Assembly: GCA_947259575.1 (NCBI GenBank)
Contig: CAMYMU010000024.1
Coordinates: 1-64,000, forward strand
Direction: 5' to 3'
Length of the DNA stretch: 64,000 bases
From: an uncultured Ectothiorhodospiraceae bacterium
GTDB lineage: Bacteria > Pseudomonadota > Gammaproteobacteria > UBA6429 > Thiohalophilaceae
In this document: positions 8,127 to 22,804 of the stretch, in pieces
How positions within the stretch are numbered: the stretch's first letter is position 1
Layout of the letters: each line of letters opens with the position of its first letter
Notes under the pieces: generated by a model
Told to the model about the DNA's origin: nothing
Seen by the model: only the letters and a program-made list of their open reading frames with translations
Database searches by the model: none
Translations under genes and position numbers: made by a program

Positions 8127-8358
8127 CCAGAAAATATAGTTTTTAAACACTTTTGGAGCCTGCTTTAAGTAATTTACAAATCGCACCTTTCTAATTCACT
8201 CACGATAAGTTTGCTCTTAGTTAGTGCAAAATGCCTGACCTTATCAGTTCTATTTACTATAAATCAATAAGTTAGCGATCAGATTAACTGGTACATCGTT
8301 TGCTTTGAGTAATACGAATGCAAACAAAAGTAATATTGAAACGGGTAGTTGAGCAATA

Positions 8359-9354
8359 ATGATGATGCGATACAAAGATGGATTCTGGCCCAATTTCGCA
8401 GCGCTTGTGTATGTGGGTGTGGCCTATTTTGTGGGCTGGGTAATGTTCTTTACTGACGAGGTTGTTTTATATATACCAGGCGTCCTAATTCTCGCACATA
8501 GTATGGTGATTGCAGCCTATATGATTCACGAGTGTGCACATAACACGATCTTTGCAAAGAATAAATGGAACGCCAAGCTTGGCAGGGTCCTGTTGTGGTT
8601 TACAGGCTCCTGCTATGGGACTTATGAAGAAATCCGTGAAAAACACTTTCGTCATCATGTCGATCGTGCTGATGTGGTGGCTTTTGATTATCGTCCCCGT
8701 CTATCTAAATTCCCCAAACTGGTCAAGTTGATGCATATCCTGGAATGGTTGTACATTCCTGCGCTAGAGATCATGATGCATTTATTAGTTTTGATATTGC
8801 CATTTACCATGGATAATCGTCGTTCTAAAAGAAAATTAGTCTTGATTGTCCTCACTATTCGAACAGTGATATTCACTAGTGTTTTTATTTTCGAACCCTT
8901 CGCTGTAATTTTATATGCCGTTGCTTACATGATGTTCTTAACGGTGATGCGTTTTATGGATGTCCATCAGCATACCTATGAGATCTTTGAGACACTGGAT
9001 CAACCAAGAGGAGAAGAAGCAAATAAATTCGATCGTGAGTATGAAGTGCGCAATACATTTTCAAATATGATTTCATTGCGTTATCCCTGGGCAAATTTGT
9101 TGATGTTGAATTTTGGCTATCATAACGCGCATCATGAAAAGCCAACGACACCCTGGTACCGGTTGCCAGCCTTGCATAAGGAGTTATTTGCTGACGATAC
9201 CACACAAGTTTTTCCCTTTATAAACCTGTTGAAGTCTTATCATCAATATCGAGTGCCTCGCATGTTGAATGCCGATGAAGGGGATATTGGCGGTCTGGAA
9301 AAAGGTCGCCAATTTGTAGGTGTTGATGGTGTTTCATTTTTAACAGCACATTAG
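8359..9354 (+). CDS. Membrane fatty acid desaturase-type diiron protein
   Basis: A 331-residue integral membrane protein with three histidine boxes: HECAHN near residue 58, HFRHH near residue 97, and HNAHH near residue 255. These ligate the diiron centre in membrane desaturases and hydroxylases. Four to five hydrophobic stretches surround them. The first gene of an apparent three-gene set, it is followed 7 bp later by a lactonase-like hydrolase. The substrate is not predictable; fatty acyl chains or a related lipid are likely. Three ATG codons in a row begin the frame at 8359. Confidence 0.85.
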   Translation: MMMRYKDGFWPNFAALVYVGVAYFVGWVMFFTDEVVLYIPGVLILAHSMVIAAYMIHECAHNTIFAKNKWNAKLGRVLLWFTGSCYGTYEEIREKHFRHHVDRADVVAFDYRPRLSKFPKLVKLMHILEWLYIPALEIMMHLLVLILPFTMDNRRSKRKLVLIVLTIRTVIFTSVFIFEPFAVILYAVAYMMFLTVMRFMDVHQHTYEIFETLDQPRGEEANKFDREYEVRNTFSNMISLRYPWANLLMLNFGYHNAHHEKPTTPWYRLPALHKELFADDTTQVFPFINLLKSYHQYRVPRMLNADEGDIGGLEKGRQFVGVDGVSFLTAH

Positions 9355-9361
9355 GTATCTT

Positions 9362-10144
9362 ATGACACAGGTAAAAAAATTCTGGCCGATTTTGACAGGC
9401 ATCCATAAATACGAAAAAACGTTATCTACACGTAATATTGGTCACGGCCAGATTATTGAAGCACCTATCCTGGCGTATCTTATGGAAACCAGTAATGGTC
9501 GCATCCTTTACGATGTCGGCTGCGACTATGAAAAGATCAATGATTTGCAGAAGCGACATCATTTTTATGAAAATGATGAATTCCCCTTTGGCCCTCCAAC
9601 CATGACAGAAGAACAAAAAATGGAAAATCGACTCCGACAGTTGGGTTTACAGCCGCTGGACATAGATACTGTTTTTGTCGGTCATTTACATTTTGATCAT
9701 GGCGGTGGCCTCTGCGACATGAAACATGCAGAAGTGCATGTACACAGCAAAGAATATGAAGCCGCGAATCAACCCGCCGATGGCGCCTACTTTGCAGAAG
9801 ATTTTACCGGTGATTATCACTGGCGATTTCAGGATGACGAATATGATTTGGTGCCTGGCATTAGAGCAATCGAAACACCAGGGCATACAGCAGGGCACAT
9901 GTCGATGCTCATTGAGTTACCAAAAGGCAAACCCATACTTTTGGCGGGCGATGCGGCCGATTTGACTGAAAATATCGAGCAAGAAATTGCACCGGGTTTA
10001 TGTTGGCATGATAAAGAAGACTTAGCATTGGCGAGTATTCGTAAGTTAAAGAACATTGCTAAAGAGACAGAAGCCTGTTTATGGCCCAATCATGATATGT
10101 CTTTTTATCGTCAATGTACGCCTTTCCCTGGCTTTTATGAATAG
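9362..10144 (+). CDS. Metallo-beta-lactamase-fold hydrolase, N-acyl homoserine lactonase-like
   Basis: A 260-residue protein with the dizinc site of the metallo-beta-lactamase fold: HLHFDHGGG (HxHxDH) near residue 109, ETPGHTAGH near residue 176, the AGDAAD aspartate near 200, and a final WPNHD histidine near 243. Length and motif spacing fit AiiA-like N-acyl homoserine lactonases, which open the lactone ring of quorum-sensing signals. No LuxI or LuxR-type AHL receptor is seen nearby, so either quorum quenching of neighbours or hydrolysis of another lactone or ester is possible. It sits between the desaturase and an EamA transporter, all on the plus strand. Confidence 0.8.
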   Translation: MTQVKKFWPILTGIHKYEKTLSTRNIGHGQIIEAPILAYLMETSNGRILYDVGCDYEKINDLQKRHHFYENDEFPFGPPTMTEEQKMENRLRQLGLQPLDIDTVFVGHLHFDHGGGLCDMKHAEVHVHSKEYEAANQPADGAYFAEDFTGDYHWRFQDDEYDLVPGIRAIETPGHTAGHMSMLIELPKGKPILLAGDAADLTENIEQEIAPGLCWHDKEDLALASIRKLKNIAKETEACLWPNHDMSFYRQCTPFPGFYE

Positions 10145-10161
10145 CCCTTAAGGATATCAAT

Positions 10162-11046
10162 ATGAAAAACGGACTTGCCATTAGTATCTTGTTTGTTAGC
10201 TCCATTGGCTGGGGGTTAACCTGGTTGCCAATCAAAGGCATTAACCAGATGGGACTGGATGGCTTGTATTTAATATTTATTGCTTTTGCCTCTGCAGGCA
10301 TATTAATGAGTCCATTGTTATTTATCCAACGGAAGTCCTGGCGTGGAAATCTACAATTTCTGTTACTGATTGCATTTTTTGGAGGTCTGGCTAATCTCCT
10401 GTTTCAAACTGCAATGGTTCATGGTGATGTGGTAAGAGTCATGATTTTATTTTATTTATTACCCGTTTGGAGTGTCTTGGGTGGTTGGTATGTGCTTAAA
10501 GAGAAACCTGACTGGATACGTATAGGGGCTGTGATCATATCTTTAGTCGGTGCCTTGTTAATATTAAATGTCGACAGTCATACATTTGATGGCCTAAGCT
10601 GGATCGACGTGATTGCAATCGGTGCAGGGATGGCATTCGCATTTAATAATATATTATTTCGTAAAACTGCAGAGCAACCCCTTGCTAGCAAGGTGAGTGC
10701 AGTATTTATAGGTTGTGCGCTCCTAATCGGTACTTATCTAGTATTTAATACTCCTACGACGGGACTACCTGAAAATGGAGCGCCATTGTATGCTGCGTTA
10801 TATGGTATTTTCTTCCTGACACTGATTACTTTTGGTACGCAATGGGGCGTTACCCAGTTAGAAGCAGCAAGAGCGGCATTGATAATCGTGATGGAACTGG
10901 TCGCAGCAGTAATATCGGTGGCATTGCTCACCGATGTGGTTTTATCCATTCGGGAAATAATCGGCGGGGCATTAGTGTTGTCCGCCGCAGTACTTGAAGG
11001 CTGGCGTGAACCAGATACAGAAACGGTTGAAGTTGTTAAATCCTGA
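10162..11046 (+). CDS. EamA/DMT-family membrane transporter
   Basis: A 294-residue protein with ten predicted membrane helices arranged as two EamA repeats, the second beginning near residue 150 (DVIAIGAGMAFAFNNILFRKTA). Proteins of this family usually export metabolites, amino acids or purines. It follows the lactonase-like gene by 17 bp and probably shares its mRNA. The stop codon abuts the stop codon of the opposite-strand TIM-barrel gene with no base between them. Confidence 0.85.
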   Translation: MKNGLAISILFVSSIGWGLTWLPIKGINQMGLDGLYLIFIAFASAGILMSPLLFIQRKSWRGNLQFLLLIAFFGGLANLLFQTAMVHGDVVRVMILFYLLPVWSVLGGWYVLKEKPDWIRIGAVIISLVGALLILNVDSHTFDGLSWIDVIAIGAGMAFAFNNILFRKTAEQPLASKVSAVFIGCALLIGTYLVFNTPTTGLPENGAPLYAALYGIFFLTLITFGTQWGVTQLEAARAALIIVMELVAAVISVALLTDVVLSIREIIGGALVLSAAVLEGWREPDTETVEVVKS

Positions 11047-11892
11047 TTATCTGTTTGAAATAAAGTTTTTGAAGTGCGTTCGTTCCGTATTGGCCATCCA
11101 GCAGTTGAGTTCCCACAGATCAGCGACCGGTTCACGAGTGAAAGGTGCTTCTTGTAAATAACCATCGGGTCCAAACTCAGGTGTCATCGTCGCGATTGAA
11201 TAATTCCGGTCCATCATTGACTGCCAGAGTATCGCCCACCAGGACTGATGAGCATGCAATGCGTCCTGATATTCTGGTGCCGCAGGGTTAGGAACCTGTG
11301 GACCCTGGTCATAACCAACACGAGCATGTATATGGTGGGCATTGCCTGCAATCGCATTAATAACATCAATCTCTGTATCTATTAACCGTTCACTGACAAC
11401 ACACCAGTGGCTAAAGTCACAGGTTAATTTAATTAGAGGTAGTTGCTCTACAAGGCGTTGGGTGATCCAGGGATTAAAGAAAGAGCGCCCTCGGTGTGTT
11501 TCGAAACTAATTGTCACCTTGAATGATTCCGCAATGTCCATAGCGCGGCTAAAAAACTCCAGGCTTTTTTCTTCTGGCCAGGCATCGCAACCACCCAGAC
11601 AGGTAATGAATAGCGGTTGAAGTTCCAGGCTGTATTCCATTTTCTGTTTTAACGAATCCAGGTGCTCTTCCAAGCTGGCGTGACGATCAGGGACATAGCT
11701 TCCGGCAGTTGTGACCTCGGCGATGTACTCTAACTGATTGTCGTGAAGTAGTTGCTTAATATGTGTGCGCGTCTGCGAGCCATGTGGTGCTGGACCTTCT
11801 ATTCCTTGCATTTCTGCTTCGAGTGTCTCAGCTACTGCCTGCTCGTAGGTACTGGTAAGCCCCCAAAGCGTTTTGAATATTTTCAGTTTCAT
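11047..11892 (-). CDS. Xylose-isomerase-like TIM-barrel protein (sugar phosphate isomerase/epimerase family)
   Basis: A 281-residue AP-endonuclease-2 type TIM barrel. The metal-ligand pattern of the family is visible: E in SFETHRGRSFF near residue 131, D and H in LTCDFSHWCV near 158, H in HHIHARVGYD near 190, and E in MTPEFGPDGY near 240. Relatives include hydroxypyruvate isomerase, epimerases and endonuclease IV. Substrate cannot be assigned. It is transcribed away from the guanidine operon, so the 240-bp gap between them is a divergent promoter region. Confidence 0.75.
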   Translation of the reverse strand: MKLKIFKTLWGLTSTYEQAVAETLEAEMQGIEGPAPHGSQTRTHIKQLLHDNQLEYIAEVTTAGSYVPDRHASLEEHLDSLKQKMEYSLELQPLFITCLGGCDAWPEEKSLEFFSRAMDIAESFKVTISFETHRGRSFFNPWITQRLVEQLPLIKLTCDFSHWCVVSERLIDTEIDVINAIAGNAHHIHARVGYDQGPQVPNPAAPEYQDALHAHQSWWAILWQSMMDRNYSIATMTPEFGPDGYLQEAPFTREPVADLWELNCWMANTERTHFKNFISNR

Positions 11893-12092
11893 AAATTGAA
11901 ACTAGCAACTGGTGCGTGTATTGGCAATTGATAGATCGCTTTGCTCATCAATGCACAAAATAAAACAGAGCTGAGTTTGTCTGCACTTGAGTGGTGCATG
12001 AATAATCACTCCCTCAGTATACAGTTCAGCTAAGTACTTGTTATTAATACATTATGTTGGAATAAATTAGATTGGCATATAGGTTGCACTCA

Positions 12093-12120
12093 GTATTACT
12101 AAAAGTTTATTTCGTAATAC
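12093..12120. promoter_or_regulatory. Candidate operator with NikR geometry, GTATTA-N16-TAATAC
   Basis: A perfect inverted repeat, AGTATTAC (12092-12099) and GTAATACT (12114-12121). Its inner hexamers are GTATTA and TAATAC separated by exactly 16 bases. The E. coli NikR operator is GTATGA-N16-TCATAC, so length and spacing are identical and each half differs by one base. A NikR-like protein is encoded in the same operon. The site ends 14 bases before the ATG of the first gene, close to its ribosome site, a position suited to repression. Confidence 0.65.
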
Positions 12121-12134
12121 TACAGGGGACTGCT

Positions 12135-13112
12135 ATGCATTTTATGATGAAGAAAATATTAGGTTTGCTCGCAGCAACTATGCTGTTTAGCGCTTCTGCG
12201 CACGCAGCCGAGCCTTTGAAGATTGGTTACAGTGACTGGCCAGGTTGGGTGTTGTGGGAAGTTGCCATTGAAAAGCAGTGGTTTAAAGAAGAGGGTCTGG
12301 ATGTCAAATTTGAATGGTTTGATTATGTAGCCTCAATGGACGCGTTTGCTGCTGGTAAAATAGACATTGTTGGTATGACTAATGGTGACACTCTGGTGAC
12401 GGGCTCAACAGGAGCGAAAAGTGTCATGTTCTTACTGAATGATTACAGTAATGGTAATGATATGCTTATTGCAAAACCTGGAATTAATTCGGTAAAGGAA
12501 TTGAAAGGTAAAAAAATTGGTGTCGAAGTAGGATTTGTGAGCCATTTACTGCTGCTTAACGCACTTGAAAAATTCGGTTTGAGTGAGTCAGATGTGGAAT
12601 TAGTAAATGTACCGACTAACGAAACTCCTCAAGTGCTTGCATCAGGGCAGGTAGATGCAATTGTAGCCTGGCAGCCCAGTTCAGGTATTGCACTACAGCA
12701 GGTACCTGGTTCCAAAGCGATCTATACCAGCGCCGATGAACCTGGCCTGATTTATGATGTTTACGCAGCCTCACCAAAAGTGTATGCAACCCGCAAAGAT
12801 GATTTAAAGAAATTGCTAAAAGTTTGGTATCGTGCGGTAGATTATTTGTATGACCCTAAAACACGTGGAGATGCTATTAAGATCATGGCTTCACGCGTAG
12901 GCTTAAAACCAGATGAATATAAAGAGTTCGTGTCTGGCACAAAAATCCTGAAGTTGGAAGAAGCCAAAAAATATATGACCAAGGTCAAAGGTTTCAAGTC
13001 AGTAACAGGATCATCAAAAATTTCTGATGACTTTAATGTTGCAAATAAGGTTTATAAAAAACCGGAAGATATAGGATCATATATTGATTTCTCATTAACC
13101 TTGGGTATGTAA
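12135..13112 (+). CDS. ABC transporter substrate-binding protein, probable guanidine importer
   Basis: A 325-residue periplasmic protein of the NMT1/TauA/SsuA type. A signal peptide ends at SAHA-AEP. The mature part starts [18 protein letters not shown] and contains the [19 protein letters not shown] and [23 protein letters not shown] segments typical of the family. ATG 12135 is chosen because AGGGGA lies just upstream and the signal peptide starts there; the longer in-frame TTG start at 12072 has neither. First gene of the guanidine operon, with matching permease and ATPase after it. Guanidine as cargo is inferred from context. Confidence 0.88.
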
Positions 13113-13130
13113 ACAAAGGGATTACTCCAG

Positions 13131-14102
13131 ATGGCCTCAGCAGTTGCACAGCTTTTCTCAGTACGACGTGAATTAAATGCAAACACGCGTATCTGGGTGA
13201 TAATTTTTAGCTTTATTCTGCCGCTGGTTGTCTGGAGTATGATCAGCTACATCCCCTTTCTCTGGCACCCTAAAGTGGAAATCACCTCTCCTGGTGATGT
13301 AGGGTATTTCTCTGAGGGAATGCTGGTTGACCGCGAAGTCTTTGATAGTGAATTACAAAAAATAATCAAAGAAGATAAGGTGCAACCAGAAGGGTTTCCT
13401 GCCAATCCAGTTTATTTACCAGCTCCACATGAAGTCGCAGTAGCATTTTATACAGCATTTACCACCGAACCTAAACGACGTAGTGAAAAATGGTTGCATG
13501 AGAGCTTGTGGGACAGTGTCCAGGTTATATTTTGGGGCTTTCTTATTTCATCAATAATCGGTGTGCCTTTAGGTATTATCTGTGGTACCTATGATTTTTT
13601 CTCGAAACTGTTTGAACCGTTTGTTGAATTCTTTCGATACTTGCCTGCGCCTGCATTTGGTGCATTGGCTGTTGCTATCCTAGGTATTCATTCCGCACCC
13701 AAGATTGCTATTATTTTTATAGGTACTTTCTTTCAGCAAGTACTCATTGTTGCGAATACAACACGGAAACTCGATCCGTCTTTATTAGAGGCAGCGATGA
13801 CATTGGGAGCAAAGCGCACGACACTGCTTTTTCGTGTCGTTATCCCTGGGATCATTACTTATTTGTATAAAGACTTACGTATTCTACTAGGTTGGGCCTG
13901 GACCTATTTAATCGTAGCTGAGTTGATCGGTACCAGCTCAGGTATAACCTGGTTTATTACCCAGCAAGCCCGTTATAAAAACTTTGAAAACGTGTATGCG
14001 GCAATCATGATTATTGGAATTATTGGACTAACGACAGATTTGATTCTGGCATGGATAGGGCGTCGACTCTTTTCATGGGAACGTGAGATGGCAAAAACAT
14101 GA
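13131..14102 (+). CDS. ABC transporter permease (TauC/SsuC type), probable guanidine importer
   Basis: A 323-residue inner-membrane protein with about six or seven helices. The EAA loop that contacts the ATPase is present: [22 protein letters not shown] near residue 220. Compared with the usual 250-280 residues it has an extra extracytoplasmic stretch between helix 1 and the rest (about residues 45-110). This enlarged form is typical of permeases near 'urea carboxylase' gene sets. It overlaps the ATPase gene by 4 bp (ATGA). Confidence 0.87.
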
Positions 14103-15013
14103 CACACCTGGAACTACCAAGTTATTTAGAACAGTCTGAGAACGTGCGGGATCGATTTAGTCGTTTGAAAGAACGCCCCGTGATTCTTGAAGTCAAAGGG
14201 CTGCAAAAAGAATTCGACACACCACAAGGTCGTGTTACGGCCTTGAAAGATATTAATTTTAAAACGCATAGACGTGAATTCGTCTGTGTGATTGGTCCAT
14301 CAGGTTGTGGTAAATCTACGTTGATACGTATTTTGGCCGGATTAGAAAATAAATCCTCTGGCAAAGTGTTACTGGAAGGGCAGGAAGTAAGTGGGCCGGG
14401 TCCGGATCGTGGCATGGTATTTCAAGGATATACACTGTTTCCCTGGCTAACCGTTAAGCGTAATGTCATGTTTGGTCTTGAAGTTAGTGGGCAGGGCAAA
14501 TATATTGCTGAAGATGAAGCCAGACAGTGGATTGAACTGGTAGGATTAAGTAAATTTGAGAATAGTTATCCGCATCAACTATCAGGAGGAATGAAACAGC
14601 GAGTAGCGATAGCCAGAGCGCTGGCAAATCAACCACGGATACTTTTGATGGATGAACCTTTCGGCGCCCTCGATGCACAAACGCGTGCTAAGATGCAGGG
14701 TTACTTGATGGAGATCTGGAAAAATATCGATATCACTATTTTGTTCATTACACATGATCTGGATGAAGCAATCTATCTCGCAGACCGAATCCTGGTACTG
14801 AAAGCCCATCCTGGTGAGGTGCAGGAACTTATCGAAGTACCCGTACCACAGCCTCGTTCACAAGATCAGTTATTAACCCCAGAATTTCTGGCGACTAAGA
14901 AGCGTCTCGAAGAATTGATTCATCCTCCTGTTGAAGAAAAAGAAATGAATGGTGATCATATGAATATGGTGCGTATGGTACCGGTAAATGATGAGGTCGA
15001 GAGCGTATTTTAA
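14099..15013 (+). CDS. ABC transporter ATP-binding protein, probable guanidine importer
   Basis: A 304-residue ATPase. The Walker A motif GPSGCGKST, the Q-loop in [12 protein letters not shown], the signature [15 protein letters not shown], Walker [13 protein letters not shown] and the H-loop ITHD are all intact, so it should power uptake by the two genes before it. It has about 30 extra residues before the ATPase core and a short extension rich in Met and Glu at the end. The stop TAA is immediately followed by the ATG of the NikR-like gene. Confidence 0.92.
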
Positions 15014-15463
15014 ATGGATATGCGCGTGAAACAGAACGTGAGTCGTGTCAGTATCTCTCTTCAGGAAAAAGTGCTCTATGAGCTAGACGAAATGGTGGGC
15101 GAGTGTGGTTTTGAGAGTCGTTCACAGGCGATCTCCGAAATGATCAACAGGCAAGTAGCAGAGCATAAAACCAAACTGGATGATTCAGTTATGGTTGGCA
15201 CGATAAATCTCGTATACGATCATTCAGTTAGGGGGTTGCAAAAAAAACTAACAGACATACAGCATAAGTATATCGATGAAGTAATCAGTTCGCTAAATGT
15301 AAACCTGATTGATGCGCAAACTTTGGGAGTAATTCTTGTTCAAGGGCCGGCAAAAAAGCTAAAAATGATCTCGGATAAAATGGTAAGCTGCAAAGGGGTG
15401 CATACAGGCAAGTTATTAATGTCTACTGCGATTATGCCACCACTACACCCATTGCCAAGATAA
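15014..15463 (+). CDS. NikR-like ribbon-helix-helix regulator lacking three nickel ligands
   Basis: A 149-residue protein. Residues 1-50 are a ribbon-helix-helix domain (VSRVSISLQEKVLYELDEMV, then SRSQAISEMI). Residues 60-135 form the ACT-like NikR domain (LVYDHSVRGLQKKLTDIQH). The alignment with E. coli NikR is ungapped through the nickel site, with a constant offset of 8. H76 is kept as H84, but H87, H89 and C95 are replaced by N95, N97 and T103. The square-planar nickel site is therefore gone, and the effector is probably something else, perhaps an operon metabolite. A palindrome with NikR operator spacing precedes the operon. Confidence 0.82.
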   Translation: MDMRVKQNVSRVSISLQEKVLYELDEMVGECGFESRSQAISEMINRQVAEHKTKLDDSVMVGTINLVYDHSVRGLQKKLTDIQHKYIDEVISSLNVNLIDAQTLGVILVQGPAKKLKMISDKMVSCKGVHTGKLLMSTAIMPPLHPLPR

Positions 15464-15474
15464 GGTAAGAAATA

Positions 15475-16197
15475 ATGAGTGATGTTCTTTACGAAGATGA
15501 ATTAGCGCCTGCCTGTCACTGGTCGTTACGAATGAAACGAGGAACGGTCTTGCGTGTTATTGATAAAGAAGGTGGCGCAAATGTTGGGATGCTATTTTAT
15601 AATCCGGAAAATTTACTCGAACGCTATAACGCACCCGATACTTTAAAGTGCCAACATACATTCAAAATTACTAAGGGACACTGTTTATACTCAGATATGG
15701 GTCGGATATTCTGCTCAGTGATAAATGATACAGTTGGTTGGCATGAAACCGCCTGTGGCAATACCACTAAAAAGATAGTCAAACAAAAGTGGGGAGAGCA
15801 CACCTATCAGGAATATCGAAATGAGTGGCAACAAAATGGTTACAGCAGTTTTCTAGTCGAGCTTGCGAAATATGGGCTTGCTAAGCAAGATATGGCTGCA
15901 AACCTTAACCTGTTTAGTAAAGTAGAAGTCAATGATGCAGGTGATCTGCAATACTGTCCCGGCAACAGTAAGGCAGGTGACTATATTGATCTCCGATTTG
16001 AAATGGATACCCTGGTGCTGCTTCACACCTGTCCTCACCCCTTAAATCCAGAAACAGAGTATCCTCGACGCGCAGTAAAGTACCAAATTTTAAAAGCGGA
16101 TCCAGTAGCCGATGACGACTATTGTAAAAATTTGTGTGCGGAAAATCAAAGAGGATTCAAGAATAACGAAATATATCACCTGGGAGTCGATTTATGA
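15475..16197 (+). CDS. cgdA: Carboxyguanidine deiminase subunit A (DUF1989, former urea carboxylase-associated protein 1)
   Basis: A 240-residue DUF1989 protein, formerly annotated as urea amidolyase-associated protein 1. Together with CgdB it deiminates carboxyguanidine, the product of the biotin carboxylase encoded downstream, releasing ammonia and giving allophanate-type product. Visible conserved parts are [25 protein letters not shown] near residue 22 and the likely metal-binding [12 protein letters not shown] near residue 85. It overlaps cgdB by 4 bp (ATGA), consistent with a stoichiometric complex. Identity rests on family length, pairing and operon content. Confidence 0.87.
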
Positions 16198-16835
16198 TCA
16201 AGGAAAGCGCATTAGTCCCTGAAGATGCGGTGTTCCGTAAAACTGTTCCAGCCGGTGATTATTTTATTGATACTATTAATTCAGGGCAGACTATCCGTAT
16301 TCTGGATCTGGAAGGTAACCAGGCTGCAGATACCCTTTTCTATAGCGCCGAGGATCCATCTGAGCGCTATAGCGCGATGGATACCATAAGAGAACAGGGA
16401 AATGTGTATCTTACTACGGGTACCAAATTGATGACTAATGATAGTAACATCCTGTTAGAAATAGTTGCCGATACCTGTGGCCGACATGATACCCTGGGTG
16501 GTGCCTGTGCAACTGAAAGTAATACGGTACGCTATGCATTGGAAAAAAAATGTATGCATGCATGTCGTGACAGCTGGATGTTAGCTGTAGCAGAAAATGA
16601 AGAGTATGGTCTGAATAAAGGTGATATTACACACAATATCAATTTTTTCATGAATGTGCCCATTACAAAAGGTGGTGAATTGACCTTCGAGGACGGCATC
16701 TCTGCGCCAGGCAAATATGTAGAACTCAAAGCCATGATGGATACAATCGTATTAATATCTAATTGTCCACAACTGAATAATCCATGCAACGGGTATAATC
16801 CAACCCCTATTGAGGTGTTGGTTTGGGATGAATAA
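16194..16835 (+). CDS. cgdB: Carboxyguanidine deiminase subunit B (DUF1989, former urea carboxylase-associated protein 2)
   Basis: A 213-residue DUF1989 protein, paralogous to CgdA. The shared core is visible as [26 protein letters not shown] near residue 32 and [18 protein letters not shown] near residue 100, where the Cys and His residues are probable metal ligands. It is the partner of CgdA in carboxyguanidine deimination. Its 3' end is followed by an 81-bp leader that carries the two-hairpin riboswitch before the carboxylase gene. Confidence 0.87.
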
Positions 16836-16855
16836 TTGATCTGATTCAATGCCTT

Positions 16856-16898
16856 CGATGGACGACCATCGTCGCTTAGTAATAACCGGGACGACCCG
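16856..16898 (+). promoter_or_regulatory. Guanidine-II (mini-ykkC) riboswitch
   Basis: Two short hairpins with the diagnostic ACGR tetraloop. The first is CGATGG-ACGA-CCATCG (16856-16871) and the second CGGG-ACGA-CCCG (16887-16898), joined by 15 bases. Paired ACGR hairpins just before a ribosome site define the guanidine-II class; guanidine binding in the two loops makes them dock and turns on translation. The carboxylase ATG is 18 bases after the second hairpin, with GGAC between. The element lies inside the operon, between cgdB and the carboxylase, so it may control only the downstream genes. Confidence 0.85.
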
Positions 16899-16916
16899 AA
16901 TCGGACTTAAAAAGTT

Positions 16917-19900
16917 ATGTTCAATAAAATACTCATTGCGAATCGTGGTGCTATAGCAACACGGATCATTCGCACTTTAAAAAAAATGAGTGTAACGTCA
17001 GTCGTTGTTTATGCAGAAGCGGACGCCGATTCATTACATGTTAGAGAAGCAGATGAAGCATATAGTTTGGGTGATGGTCCTGTTGCCGATACCTACTTAA
17101 ATCAAGATAAGATATTTACGATAATCAAACAATCTGGTGCACAAGCTGTACATCCCGGCTATGGTTTCCTCAGCGAAAACTCCGATTTTGTAAAGCGATG
17201 TCAGCAAGAAGACGTTGTTTTTCTTGGGCCCACTACCGAACAGATGGCTGCTTTCGGTATGAAACATTCTGCGCGCGAACTGGCCGAAAATAATCAGGTT
17301 CCTTTGCTGCCCGGTAGTGAGCTGCTTGCCAGTCTTGATGAGGCTTTAATTGAAGCTGAAAAGATTGGCTATCCTCTTATGTTAAAAAGTACTGCCGGCG
17401 GTGGTGGTATTGGCATGCAATTATGTTGGAACAAAGATGAACTAGCGAAATCTTATGACTCTGTTAAAAGATTGAGCGAGTCTAATTTTGCCAACAGTGG
17501 TTTATTTTTAGAAAAGTTTGTTGATAAGGCGCGTCACATTGAAGTACAGGTCTTTGGTGATGGTAAAGGCAAAGTAATTGCCCTGGGTGAGCGAGATTGC
17601 AGCAGTCAACGCCGTAATCAAAAGGTTATAGAAGAAACGCCAGCGCCGCATATTCCAGATGCCGTCCGTACCCAATTACAGGCAACCGCAAAGCGACTTT
17701 GTGCAGCAGTAAATTATCGTAACGCCGGTACCGTTGAGTATATCTATAATCCGCAAAACGACGAATTCTATTTTCTTGAAGTGAATACCCGTTTACAAGT
17801 CGAGCACGGGATTACTGAACAGGTCTATAGTGTCGATCTTGTCAGAATGATGATCGAGCTGGGAGCGAATGAACTTGCACATTTGGATGAAATCGAGAGG
17901 TCGCTACAACCAAGCGGGCATAGTATCCAGTTTCGGTTATATGCAGAAGACCCCAATAAACAATTTCAGCCATGTGCCGGTTTATTGAGTGAGGTTAACT
18001 TTCCAGCTGCAGATGGTAAGCAACTTCGAATTGATCATTGGATAGAAAGTGGTTCGGTGGTGTCACCTAATTACGATCCAATGCTTGCCAAAATCATTGT
18101 ACATCGTGAAAACAGGGAGCAAGCCTTAGGGGCCTTATTAGATGTCATGGAAGATACTAATATATATGGTATCGAGACAAATATGGAGTTTGTTCAGCAT
18201 GTTTTGCAGACTGATATATTCAAAGAGGGCAAGATTTATACACGTTATCTGAATGACTTCCGTTACACACCTGCCACCATTGATGTACTTGTGGGCGGTA
18301 CCCAAACCAGCATTCAGGATTATCCTGGACGAACCGGTTACTGGGATATTGGAGTACCACCCTCGGGGCCCTTTGACAACATATCGTTCCGATTAGGCAA
18401 CCAGCTATTAGGCAATGCTGCAGACAGTGCCGGACTTGAAATAACTTTGAATGGACCAACCCTGAAATTTAATACCAATACGACTATCGTCTTGGCAGGG
18501 GCAGACATGGAGGCTACGCTTGACGATAAACCGGTTCCATTCTGGCAAACAGTGGATATATCAGAAGGTCAGGTACTGAAGGTTGGTAAAATTAAAGAGG
18601 CCGGTGCTCGCAGTTATTTGCTGGTTAAAGGTGGAATCCAGTGCCCTGATTATTTATCTTCGAAATCAACATTTACGCTAGGTCAGTTTGGTGGTCATAC
18701 CGGCCGACTGCTAAGGCCGGGAGATGTTTTAAAGATTCAACACGTTGAACACAGCGACAGTAACAAACTGGTACCTGAGCTAATACCATTAATAAAAAAT
18801 GAGTGGGAAATTCGTGTTATCTATGGTCCCCATGGTGCGCCTGATTTTTTCACAAATGAAGATATCGAGACTTTCTTCAATGCTCGCTGGGAAGTGCATT
18901 ATAACTCTAGTCGTACCGGTATACGTCTGATCGGTCCAAAACCACAGTGGGCTCGTTCTGATGGTGGTGAAGCAGGGATGCATCCCTCAAATATCCATGA
19001 TAATGCTTATGCGATTGGCGCGATTGATTTTACCGGTGACATGCCGGTGATTCTTGGCCCTGATGGCCCGAGTCTAGGTGGATTTGTCTGTCCTGCCACG
19101 GTCATCCATGCAGACCTGTGGAAGCTAGGGCAACTTAAATCCGGTGATAGCATCAAGTTTATCCCTGTCTCTGTTGAAGATGCGGTGAAGCTTGAAAGAA
19201 ATCAAATTTCATCGGTTAACACACTCAGCCAGAATAATTTGGACGTAAATACAACGACTCTGGATAGCACGATCATCAAGACCATCAATAAAGAAAAGTT
19301 TGGGATAGAAGTGGTGTATCGTCCCGCGGGGGATCATTATTTGCTCGTAGAATATGGTCCACTCGTGTTGGATATTAATCTGCGTTTCCGAGTGCATGCC
19401 TTAATGGAGTGGATGAATAATCACCGTGTTGATGGACTCCAAGAGCTTACTCCCGGAATTCGCTCATTACAGATCCACTATAACAGCCAGAAGCTTTCGT
19501 TAGCACAACTGCTGGAAATATTACATCAGGCAGAATCTGAACTGGTTAATCTCGAAGATCACAAGGTGCCATCAAGGATTGTGCATTTGCCGTTGAGCTG
19601 GAATGATGAAGCCTGCCAACTGGCGATTGATAAATATATGCAATCGGTTCGCAAAGATGCACCCTGGTGCCCCAGTAACCTGGAGTTTATTCGTCGCATC
19701 AATGGTCTTGATTCCATTGATGAAGTAAAACAGATTGTCTTCGATGCCAGTTATGTGGTGATGGGACTGGGTGATGTCTATCTGGGGGCACCAGTCGCCA
19801 CACCACTTGATCCCCGTCATCGTTTAGTGACCACTAAATATAATCCTGCCAGGACCTGGACCGCAGAGAACTCGGTGGGGATTGGTGGATCGTATTTATG

Positions 19901-20522
19901 CGTCTATGGGATGGAAGGACCGGGAGGATATCAATTTGTTGGTCGGACCCTGCAAATGTGGAATCGCTATCATAAGACTACCGAGTTTAGCCAGCCCTGG
20001 TTATTGAGATTTTTTGATCAGATCCGATTCTACGAGGTCGATGCAGACGAACTTAAACAGGTTCGCAAAAGCTTCCCTAAAGGGCAGTACACACTAAATA
20101 TTGAACAAACTGAATTTAGCCTGAAAGAATATAATCAATATCTGGAACAAAATAAAAATGATATTGAAATATTTACCAGACAACGACAAAAGGCATTTAA
20201 CGAAGAGCTGCAGCGCTGGATTGAATCAGGGCAGATTAATTTTGAAAGTGAGCAGCATATTGTGGATGATCCGGCTCTGGAAGAAGTTCTCGCTAACAAT
20301 GAAGTTGCAATTGAGAGCCATGTAGCTGGCAATATTTGGAAAATCCTGGTGCACCCCGGCGACAAGGTAGAAGAAGGCGATGCGGTGTTAATTTTGGAAT
20401 CGATGAAGATGGAAATCGAAGTTGTCGCGATAGAGTCTGGCACGATTAAAAGCATCTCAAAAGAAGAAGGTAGCCAGGTATCTGCCGGGCAACGTTTGAT
20501 AGTTATGGAGTTAATGTCATGA
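16917..20522 (+). CDS. Biotin-dependent guanidine (urea) carboxylase
   Basis: A 1201-residue enzyme. Domains in order: biotin carboxylase about 1-450 (MFNKILIANRGAIATRI, the ATP-grasp loop STAGGGGIGM, ERDCSSQRRNQKVIEE); KipA/AHS2-like part about 455-770 (GGTQTSIQDYPGRTGYWDIG); KipI/AHS1-like part about 795-1010; and a biotinyl domain about 1130-1201 with the biotin lysine K1164 in ESMKME. It carboxylates urea or guanidine using ATP and bicarbonate. The guanidine-II riboswitch before it and the cgdAB genes point to guanidine as the physiological substrate. The gene overlaps the allophanate hydrolase gene by 4 bp. Confidence 0.93.
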   Translation: MFNKILIANRGAIATRIIRTLKKMSVTSVVVYAEADADSLHVREADEAYSLGDGPVADTYLNQDKIFTIIKQSGAQAVHPGYGFLSENSDFVKRCQQEDVVFLGPTTEQMAAFGMKHSARELAENNQVPLLPGSELLASLDEALIEAEKIGYPLMLKSTAGGGGIGMQLCWNKDELAKSYDSVKRLSESNFANSGLFLEKFVDKARHIEVQVFGDGKGKVIALGERDCSSQRRNQKVIEETPAPHIPDAVRTQLQATAKRLCAAVNYRNAGTVEYIYNPQNDEFYFLEVNTRLQVEHGITEQVYSVDLVRMMIELGANELAHLDEIERSLQPSGHSIQFRLYAEDPNKQFQPCAGLLSEVNFPAADGKQLRIDHWIESGSVVSPNYDPMLAKIIVHRENREQALGALLDVMEDTNIYGIETNMEFVQHVLQTDIFKEGKIYTRYLNDFRYTPATIDVLVGGTQTSIQDYPGRTGYWDIGVPPSGPFDNISFRLGNQLLGNAADSAGLEITLNGPTLKFNTNTTIVLAGADMEATLDDKPVPFWQTVDISEGQVLKVGKIKEAGARSYLLVKGGIQCPDYLSSKSTFTLGQFGGHTGRLLRPGDVLKIQHVEHSDSNKLVPELIPLIKNEWEIRVIYGPHGAPDFFTNEDIETFFNARWEVHYNSSRTGIRLIGPKPQWARSDGGEAGMHPSNIHDNAYAIGAIDFTGDMPVILGPDGPSLGGFVCPATVIHADLWKLGQLKSGDSIKFIPVSVEDAVKLERNQISSVNTLSQNNLDVNTTTLDSTIIKTINKEKFGIEVVYRPAGDHYLLVEYGPLVLDINLRFRVHALMEWMNNHRVDGLQELTPGIRSLQIHYNSQKLSLAQLLEILHQAESELVNLEDHKVPSRIVHLPLSWNDEACQLAIDKYMQSVRKDAPWCPSNLEFIRRINGLDSIDEVKQIVFDASYVVMGLGDVYLGAPVATPLDPRHRLVTTKYNPARTWTAENSVGIGGSYLCVYGMEGPGGYQFVGRTLQMWNRYHKTTEFSQPWLLRFFDQIRFYEVDADELKQVRKSFPKGQYTLNIEQTEFSLKEYNQYLEQNKNDIEIFTRQRQKAFNEELQRWIESGQINFESEQHIVDDPALEEVLANNEVAIESHVAGNIWKILVHPGDKVEEGDAVLILESMKMEIEVVAIESGTIKSISKEEGSQVSAGQRLIVMELMS

Positions 20523-22318
20523 ATATAACGAATATGACGATTGCAGGTCTGTTACAGCAATATCGCAATCGTGATTTTACCCCCTCTGATCTCATTGAGT
20601 TTTTATTAGCAAAAGCAGAAGAACTGGCTGAATATCATAGCTGGATTCATCTCATGTCGCGGGAAGAGATTCAGCCTTATCTTGATGCGTTGCAAGGCAA
20701 ATCCGCCGATGAATTACCGCTGTATGGAATACCGTTTGCCATAAAAGACAATATCGATTTGCAGGGGATAGAGACGACCGCTGCCTGCGAGCCTTTTAGT
20801 TATGTACCTGAGGAATCTTCCTTCGTCGTGCAACTATTAATTGACGCGGGTGCTATTCCACTGGGGAAGACTAACCTGGATCAGTTTGCTACAGGTTTAG
20901 TGGGAACTCGGTCACCGTATGGTGCAACCAAGAATGCTTTCAACCCAGAGTATATCTCAGGAGGCTCTAGCTCGGGGTCTGCTGTGGTTGTGGCACAAGG
21001 TCTGGTTAGTTTCTCTTTGGGTACTGATACGGCGGGTTCAGGCCGTGTCCCTGCCGCATTTAATAACATCATCGGGATGAAACCGACGCGCGGGTTATTA
21101 AGCAATCATGGTGTAGTACCGGCATGCAAAACTCTCGACTGTGTTGCTCTGTTTGCAACCTCCACACAAGATATAGCTACTTTACTTGAAACAACTGGAA
21201 AGCATGATTCACAAGATCCCTATTCAAGAATCCAACCATCAGTAAACAATAGCTCACTATCATCATTGCAGTCATTTTCATTTGCAGTTCCCAGGTCGGA
21301 ACAGCTAGAGTTTTTTGGCAATGATCACTATCAGACAATATTTGATCAGACAGTACTTAAATTGGAAAAACTCGGTGGGCGAAAAATTGAAATAGATTTC
21401 TCAGCATTTTTAGATGCCGCAAAACTGTTATACGAAGGTCCTTGGGTTACAGAGCGGTATCTGGCTTGTAAATCATTACTGGAAAAACAACCTGAAGCCA
21501 TGCTGGATGTGACACGTAAAATTATTGCACCGGGTAAAGACAATCTTGCAACAGATGCATTTCGTGCACAATATAAGTTACATGCCTACAAACAAGTCAC
21601 CGACGCACTCTTACGTGAATGTGATTTCATGTTGACACCAACTACCGGCACCATCTATACGATAGATCAAGTCAACCAAGATCCTATTAAGTTGAACTCA
21701 AATTTGGGGTATTACACCAATTATATGAACTTGCTGGATTATGCTTCAATTGCAATCCCAGCAGGATTTACAAATGATGGATTGCCCTTTGGGGTCACGC
21801 TGGTATCAACAGCGTTTAGTGATGAAAAACTCTTAGACTATGCAAGCCTTATTCAACAGTCATTAAAATTGCCATTAGGTGCGACTAATAAAGAATTACC
21901 AGAGATGATACCTCAGCAGAGGACATCAGAACATAATATGAAAATAGTTGTATGTGGAGCACACATGTCAAATCTACCATTAAACAGCCAGTTGACAGAT
22001 CGTCAGGCCGTTATGGTGAAGCAATGTAAATCTTCTCCACACTATAAATTGTTTGCTTTACCCGGAGGGCCGCCAGAGCGTCCCGGAATGATACGAGTAG
22101 ATGAAGGTGGTGCTGCAATCGAGGTGGAAGTCTGGGAAATGCCTGTAGCGTATTTTGGCAGCTTCCTGGCGGGTATTCCGCATCCGCTAGGGTTAGGCAA
22201 GGTTGAGTTGGACGATGACAGCTGGGAAACAGGGTTCATTTGCGAAAGTTATATTCAGGCAGAAGCCAAAGACATTAGTCAATTTGGTGGGTGGAGGCCT
22301 TATGTTACGCGCGAATAG
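20519..22318 (+). CDS. atzF: Allophanate hydrolase
   Basis: A 599-residue amidase-signature enzyme that splits allophanate to two ammonia and two CO2, the last step of carboxylase-dependent guanidine or urea breakdown. The catalytic Lys-Ser-Ser set is visible in YGIPFAIKDNIDLQG near residue 75 and in YISGGSSSGSAVVVAQG plus GTDTAGSGRVPAAFN between residues 140 and 180. The C-terminal about 130 residues (from KIVVCGAHMSNLPLN) form the extra domain found in full-length allophanate hydrolases, seen also in AtzF and DUR1,2. ATG sits in the stop of the carboxylase gene. Confidence 0.93.
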   Translation: MNITNMTIAGLLQQYRNRDFTPSDLIEFLLAKAEELAEYHSWIHLMSREEIQPYLDALQGKSADELPLYGIPFAIKDNIDLQGIETTAACEPFSYVPEESSFVVQLLIDAGAIPLGKTNLDQFATGLVGTRSPYGATKNAFNPEYISGGSSSGSAVVVAQGLVSFSLGTDTAGSGRVPAAFNNIIGMKPTRGLLSNHGVVPACKTLDCVALFATSTQDIATLLETTGKHDSQDPYSRIQPSVNNSSLSSLQSFSFAVPRSEQLEFFGNDHYQTIFDQTVLKLEKLGGRKIEIDFSAFLDAAKLLYEGPWVTERYLACKSLLEKQPEAMLDVTRKIIAPGKDNLATDAFRAQYKLHAYKQVTDALLRECDFMLTPTTGTIYTIDQVNQDPIKLNSNLGYYTNYMNLLDYASIAIPAGFTNDGLPFGVTLVSTAFSDEKLLDYASLIQQSLKLPLGATNKELPEMIPQQRTSEHNMKIVVCGAHMSNLPLNSQLTDRQAVMVKQCKSSPHYKLFALPGGPPERPGMIRVDEGGAAIEVEVWEMPVAYFGSFLAGIPHPLGLGKVELDDDSWETGFICESYIQAEAKDISQFGGWRPYVTRE

Positions 22319-22395
22319 TGTTTTGAATAAAAATCAACCGATGCATCCTAACTTATTGAATATAATTATAAAAAATTAAGTCAGGAGAGCGGCTA

Positions 22396-22455
22396 ATGAC
22401 CATACAGGGACAGTTTTTTTATGTCCAAAAGCTGAAAATTAGTCTTGAAAGTTGA
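22396..22455 (+). other. Possible 19-codon ORF with a good ribosome site
   Basis: ATG 22396 follows AGGAG at 22383-22387 with suitable spacing. The frame encodes only 19 residues, with no recognisable motif. It could be a leader peptide for the DsrC-like gene or chance. Kept at low confidence. Confidence 0.15.
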
Positions 22456-22510
22456 ATGGTTGACCATAATAATCAAGTATTAGTTCGAATTAGACAAGAG
22501 GTAAAAAGCA

Positions 22511-22804
22511 ATGCAAATTCCAGAGCGTGATGGTGATGGTTACCTGGTAGACATGAATGCCTGGACACCTGAAATCGCAAAGGCGATGGCAGAAGCCGAT
22601 GGTATTGAGCTAGATGATGAGCAATGGGAGCAAATTACAAAAGCTCGGGAGTACTATGAGGAGTATAGTGTTGTTCCTCCGATTCGTAAGTTCTCAAAAT
22701 ACATTGAAGCAAATCAAAAGGACATGTTTAAAAAGTGGATGACAGGTCCGATGAAGCCTATCACGAAATATGGTGGCTTACCCAAGCCTACTGGTTGTGT
22801 ATAA
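22511..22804 (+). CDS. DsrC/TusE-family sulfur carrier protein with a single C-terminal cysteine
   Basis: A 97-residue protein that ends in the family signature GGLPKPTGCV, with the reactive cysteine in the penultimate position. DsrC of dissimilatory sulfur metabolism has a second cysteine about ten residues earlier; here that position lies in KPITKYGG and no cysteine exists. The single-cysteine form is what TusE of tRNA thiolation and several DsrC-like sulfur-trafficking proteins have. The gene stands alone between a 190-bp leader and a strong terminator, with no tus or dsr genes beside it. A persulfide-carrier role is likely, the pathway open. Confidence 0.85.
   Translation: MQIPERDGDGYLVDMNAWTPEIAKAMAEADGIELDDEQWEQITKAREYYEEYSVVPPIRKFSKYIEANQKDMFKKWMTGPMKPITKYGGLPKPTGCV

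Follow-up and report, generated by a model that had tools for sequence, protein, structure and literature searches.

The locus described here lies in a stretch of 64,000 nucleotides, the whole of which we call the window, and carries a pair of ACGA-loop hairpins between cgdB and a gene automatically named as a urea carboxylase. It raises the question of whether this pair is a Guanidine-II riboswitch, whether guanidine and not urea is then the signal and substrate of the surrounding genes, and how such an element would act from within an operon. In our reading, the Guanidine-II (mini-ykkC) element very probably functions as a translational ON switch for gca and atzF within a guanidine-degradation operon. 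This reading draws on features observed directly at the locus, namely the RNA motif, whose stems covary, the specificity residues of the carboxylase, the set of genes present and the conserved position of the element.

The coordinates of the features are collected in Table 1. The operon comprises, in order, the substrate-binding protein, permease and ATPase of an ABC transporter, a NikR-like protein, cgdA, cgdB, the riboswitch, the carboxylase and the allophanate hydrolase. The NCBIfam names of the enzymes are still urea carboxylase and urea amidolyase associated proteins. At related loci L060 (2607-4752), L020 (8925-11078), L080 (2994-5137) and L094 (937-3084), the ATPase gene and cgdA are separated by two additional genes that look creatininase-like and glutamine-synthetase-like by eye; the window has neither at this point of the operon.

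Table 1. Features of the operon and of its head, with window positions.
Feature	Position	Strand	Basis
NtrC-like site TGCACT-N5-GGTGCA (exact)	11982..11998	.	also in relatives
Sigma-54-like promoter TTGGCATATAGGTTGCA (exact)	12072..12088	+	same position in relatives
Dyad AGTATTAC-N14-GTAATACT (exact), candidate operator of the NikR-like protein	12092..12121	.	
ABC transporter substrate-binding protein, first operon gene	12135..13112	+	NMT1; ATG at 12135
ABC transporter permease and ATPase	13131..15013	+	BPD_transp_1, ABC_tran
NikR-like ribbon-helix-helix regulator, degenerate nickel site	15014..15463	+	Pfam NikR_C, RHH_1
cgdA, carboxyguanidine deiminase subunit (UAAP1, DUF1989)	15475..16197	+	TIGR03425, 332 bits
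cgdB, carboxyguanidine deiminase subunit (UAAP2, DUF1989)	16194..16835	+	TIGR03424, 334 bits
Guanidine-II hairpin P1, CGAUGG-ACGA-CCAUCG, 6 perfect pairs	16856..16871	+	Rfam RF01068, covariation
P1-P2 linker, 15 nt	16872..16886	+	relatives 11-21 nt, median 15
Guanidine-II hairpin P2, CGGG-ACGA-CCCG, 4 perfect pairs	16887..16898	+	Rfam RF01068, covariation
Weak putative ribosome-binding site, GGA, ahead of the carboxylase start codon (ATG, 16917)	16903..16905	+	sequence; inferred
Guanidine carboxylase gca (automatic name urea carboxylase)	16917..20522	+	TIGR02712, 1866 bits; Asp704, Asp953
Allophanate hydrolase atzF, 4-nt overlap with the gca stop (20519-20522)	20519..22318	+	TIGR02713, 775 bits

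The substrate was read primarily from the proteins. Guanidine carboxylases are distinguished by an Asp at the position of residue 1330 of the K. lactis enzyme, which is Asn in urea carboxylase, together with an Asp at position 1584 (PMC11410670). In our alignment with K. lactis urea carboxylase, with positions counted by hand, Asp704 of the window carboxylase is matched to Asn1330 and Asp953 to Asp1584. Both diagnostic residues are present in every readable relative (78/78 and 75/75), and guanidine is therefore the likely substrate. The preliminary description had taken the hairpins themselves to settle guanidine, not urea, as the likely signal and substrate. The preference for guanidine is upheld by these two residues and by the flanking cgdA, cgdB and atzF genes; the hairpins add weight to it but are not decisive. 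In published in-line probing, a Guanidine-II RNA from Vreelandella boliviensis bound guanidine with a KD of 93 uM and methylguanidine with a KD of 83 uM (PMC12508155). The substrate therefore cannot be read from the RNA by itself, and the assignment is firmer from the proteins than from the RNA.

The same binding data, obtained with an element at the same position, would also fit a different signal, in which methylguanidine or another substituted guanidine is the main ligand in vivo and the pathway under the switch's control handles a wider range of guanidino compounds. Pointing the same way, an adjacent desaturase-like hydroxylase cluster, described below, has a matching promoter, and a homologue of its desaturase-like gene has Guanidine-II upstream in five other genomes. 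We nevertheless consider this signal unlikely, since the operon enzymes are predicted from family and signature residues to act on free guanidine, and since the methylguanidine genes mgdH/mgdL, which V. boliviensis carries between gca and atzF, have no counterpart here, where no genes separate the two.

As for the element through which free guanidine would act, a cmscan search of the whole 64 kb window returned RF01068 (Guanidine-II) as the sole gathering-level Rfam RNA match, at positions 16854-16898, scoring 33.1 bits where the gathering score is 32. It is also the only Guanidine-II match in the genome. The margin of just 1.1 bits counts against the switch reading and is perhaps owing to a P2 with only four pairs. 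The folding energy of the RNA is unexceptional (z about -1) and no better than that of shuffles, and the case is built instead on the loops and on covariation. Both stem loops have an ACGR loop with conserved closing pairs, as the Guanidine-II consensus asks, and the 15-nt spacer agrees with the length of at least 13 nt found in most members (PMC5486947). In an alignment of 20 sequences (the window and 19 relatives), 92.5% of the stem cells were paired, compared with 68% after shuffling and 21-45% with slid partners. Changes on both sides were observed in 8 of the 12 stem pairs, double changes numbered 60 versus 19 in shuffles, and the covariation score of the stems was 0.63 versus 0.17 when shuffled. 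The GGACGACC loops are invariant, the ACGR loops and closing pairs essentially so (GGACG-CC in relatives), and the outer stems covary. The hairpin pair is thus confirmed as real. The preliminary description had reported two ACGA-loop hairpins with perfect stems ahead of the carboxylase ribosome site and had suggested a covariance-model search; both the covarying stems and the match above the gathering score bear it out. Clear Guanidine-II pairs from the same genus at L081/L140 and L141 fall under the Rfam gathering score, and standard annotation would miss them.

The pair ends, with P2, 18 nt before the carboxylase ATG (16917-16919). For comparison, we used the 80 loci nearest to the window's CgdB in a genome collection and a strict rule of two GGACGRCC hairpins, by which the pair was found in the cgdB-carboxylase gap at 62 loci. 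Five further loci have one strict-rule hairpin, with a second ACGR loop or a near miss visible, and 13 have no hairpin, their cgdB-gca gaps measuring 6-44 nt. A position between cgdB and the carboxylase had previously been called unusual, which these loci rule out together with two published accounts. The V. boliviensis operon has Guanidine-I at its head and a Guanidine-II that separates cgdB from gca (PMC12508155), and the same layout is reported for Raoultella terrigena, Erwinia rhapontici and Klebsiella michiganensis (review PMC12186494). The placement in the window is the usual, already published one. At L090 (5104-5149), Guanidine-II stands ahead of cgdA and not of the carboxylase; the carboxylase-cgdB gap there is only 23 nt.

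Ligand binding, the translational mode and the pathway are taken over from published relatives. On that model, the ABC transporter would bring guanidine into the cell, where its binding to P1 and P2 would steady the loop-loop contact and free the carboxylase start. The gca product would carboxylate guanidine, CgdAB would deiminate the resulting compound to allophanate, and AtzF would split allophanate into ammonia and CO2. Activation of atzF would probably accompany that of gca through the overlap of the two genes. Separate translational control of gca-atzF is a published proposal and is plausible here.

The gap was also examined for signals that could set gca expression. Neither a promoter nor a terminator of its own was found beyond chance in the cgdB-gca gap; Guanidine-II is therefore taken as part of the operon mRNA, and a private promoter for gca was rejected. 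A conserved linker pairing that hides the gca ribosome site was not found in 59 distinct sequences (mean z 0.27 versus shuffled linkers). Two alternative pairings, one of 16836-16847 with 16898-16909 and one at the start codon between AUAAC and GUUAU, were predicted from the window sequence alone. The weakness of the gca ribosome-binding site was also counted against the switch reading.

The lack of a visible expression platform, the RF01068 score near its threshold and the 13 of 80 relatives without hairpins would be compatible with a relic element, whose hairpins persist although gca expression depends on the upstream promoter and on translational coupling to cgdB. Such decay is quite improbable, because the stems covary and the loops and closing pairs stay unchanged in gaps of very different sequence, and because both hairpins of the window are perfectly paired. 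A chance pair of G+C-rich hairpins is already refuted by conservation, for although a single GGACGRCC should turn up by chance 1.7 times per window, dinucleotide-shuffling the 81-nt cgdB-carboxylase gap 100,000 times never produced two such hairpins, and most relatives have the same pair in the same location.

Read as a guanidine-responsive ON switch, the riboswitch is a further Guanidine-II member at the standard place, with nothing out of the ordinary. The less ordinary feature is the operon head without Guanidine-I, a point absent from the preliminary description. RF00442 (Guanidine-I) is absent from the operon and from the whole genome of the window, and no second guanidine riboswitch was detected at the operon head in a search of positions 11800-22600 with E values up to 1. 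Guanidine-I is present in 69 of the 80 related genomes and, where located on the locus, lies ahead of the importer genes. In 11 genomes, the region upstream of the first gene has the same order of elements: a dyad resembling an NtrC site, then a -24/-12 element of sigma-54 type (poor in G169), and last the dyad AGTATTAC-N14-GTAATACT, immediately ahead of the ribosome site. The first two elements were identified with general consensus sequences for NtrC and sigma-54. The head dyads have at most one mismatch in 10 of the 11 genomes and two in the eleventh, and a dyad with at most one mismatch was found nowhere in the 11 Guanidine-I genomes searched. Since two-mismatch dyads were genome-wide no commoner than a reversed control pattern, only operon-head sites with at most one mismatch and one positionally matched second site were used. 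An RNA hairpin at the 12092 dyad is less likely, as one-sided changes in G017 and G034 break the pairing and keep the half-site appearance. The TTG start listed for the substrate-binding protein at 12072 is likely wrong because of the conserved promoter and dyad elements at 11982-12121; an ATG is available at 12135.

The NikR-like protein, for which this dyad is a candidate operator, reaches 123 bits with PRK04460 (cut-off 105), contains both RHH and NikR_C domains and aligns gap-free to P. horikoshii NikR. The nickel ligands of NikR are His76, His87, His89 and Cys95 (PMC7055735), of which the window protein keeps His76 and replaces the other three by N, N and T, respectively. Among the NikR-like relatives read, Cys95 is kept in none and His89 in one. 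With three of four ligands replaced, the protein is unlikely to be a nickel sensor, though NCBIfam would name it so. The distribution of its gene is complementary to that of Guanidine-I. Across the window and the 80 loci (n = 81), 10 have the NikR-like gene without Guanidine-I, 69 have Guanidine-I without a NikR-like gene in the operon, 2 have neither and none has both (Fisher p = 3.5e-11, a value too small given shared ancestry). Two more NikR-like genomes lack Guanidine-I, G002 genome-wide and G034 within an 18-kb locus, and a search of 12 Guanidine-I genomes for the NikR-like protein found it in none. The exceptions are G130, with the dyad but no NikR-like gene found, and G116, with neither Guanidine-I nor a NikR-like gene; it is possible that the gene was missed in both, as their assemblies are fragmented.

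The positionally matched second dyad, at 8308, has two mismatches and directly follows a sigma-54-like element (8288-8304). A weak NtrC-like site lies upstream at 8212, and a gene at 8359 is situated just beyond the dyad. This second site is also present in G017, where 3.8 kb separate it from the first. The associated cluster (8212-11892) encodes a desaturase-like membrane protein, a lactonase-like metallo-hydrolase and an EamA transporter, with a TIM-barrel protein convergent to them. The desaturase-like protein has three histidine boxes and weakly matches GntB, an L-arginine hydroxylase. The genomes in which a Guanidine-II pair directly precedes its homologue are L020, L168, L139, L177 and L181, and the element of L020 was also found by Rfam. 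In the literature searched, no paper linked such a desaturase-like enzyme to a guanidine riboswitch. We regard this association as a good lead, and our guess is that the cluster may free guanidine from a larger guanidino compound.

The operon head suggests a protein-for-RNA swap. We tentatively propose, as a possibility somewhat short of an even chance, that in a branch of Gammaproteobacteria the Guanidine-I RNA gave way to a NikR-family repressor without a nickel site. The repressor would sense guanidine or another operon metabolite and bind AGTATTAC-N14-GTAATACT over the sigma-54/NtrC promoter start, with the internal Guanidine-II kept, and it would also control the adjacent desaturase-like hydroxylase cluster, which would supply the pathway with guanidine. 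The locus confirms that genes labelled as urea metabolism serve guanidine, and its head suggests that an RNA sensor and a protein sensor can replace each other for one signal. It also predicts a NikR-family protein insensitive to nickel despite its automatic annotation, and the Guanidine-II-linked desaturase-like enzymes hint at a step, undescribed in the literature searched, that may release guanidine from larger compounds.

Compared with known systems, the element resembles the Guanidine-II class (RF01068) in its ACGA loops, G+C-rich closing pairs, linker length and place before the carboxylase start, without notable difference apart from a score only slightly over threshold. The gca operon of V. 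boliviensis (PMC12508155) shares the ABC importer, cgdA/B, the internal Guanidine-II between cgdB and gca, gca itself and atzF. Its head Guanidine-I and its mgdH/mgdL are both missing from the window, which has the NikR-like gene and the sigma-54/NtrC-like head instead. Raoultella terrigena, Erwinia rhapontici and Klebsiella michiganensis (PMC12186494) are likewise similar, with Guanidine-II before the carboxylase and allophanate hydrolase and 3' of the importer and deiminase genes, but have a Guanidine-I before their importer genes, which the window lacks. The regulator shares RHH and NikR_C with NikR, its best solved relative being P. horikoshii NikR (2bj1), and the candidate dyad, as GTAT-N20-ATAC, has a spacing equal to that of the E. 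coli NikR operator GTATGA-N16-TCATAC. It differs from NikR in the three replaced nickel ligands and in its setting, which is a guanidine operon and not one of nickel genes.
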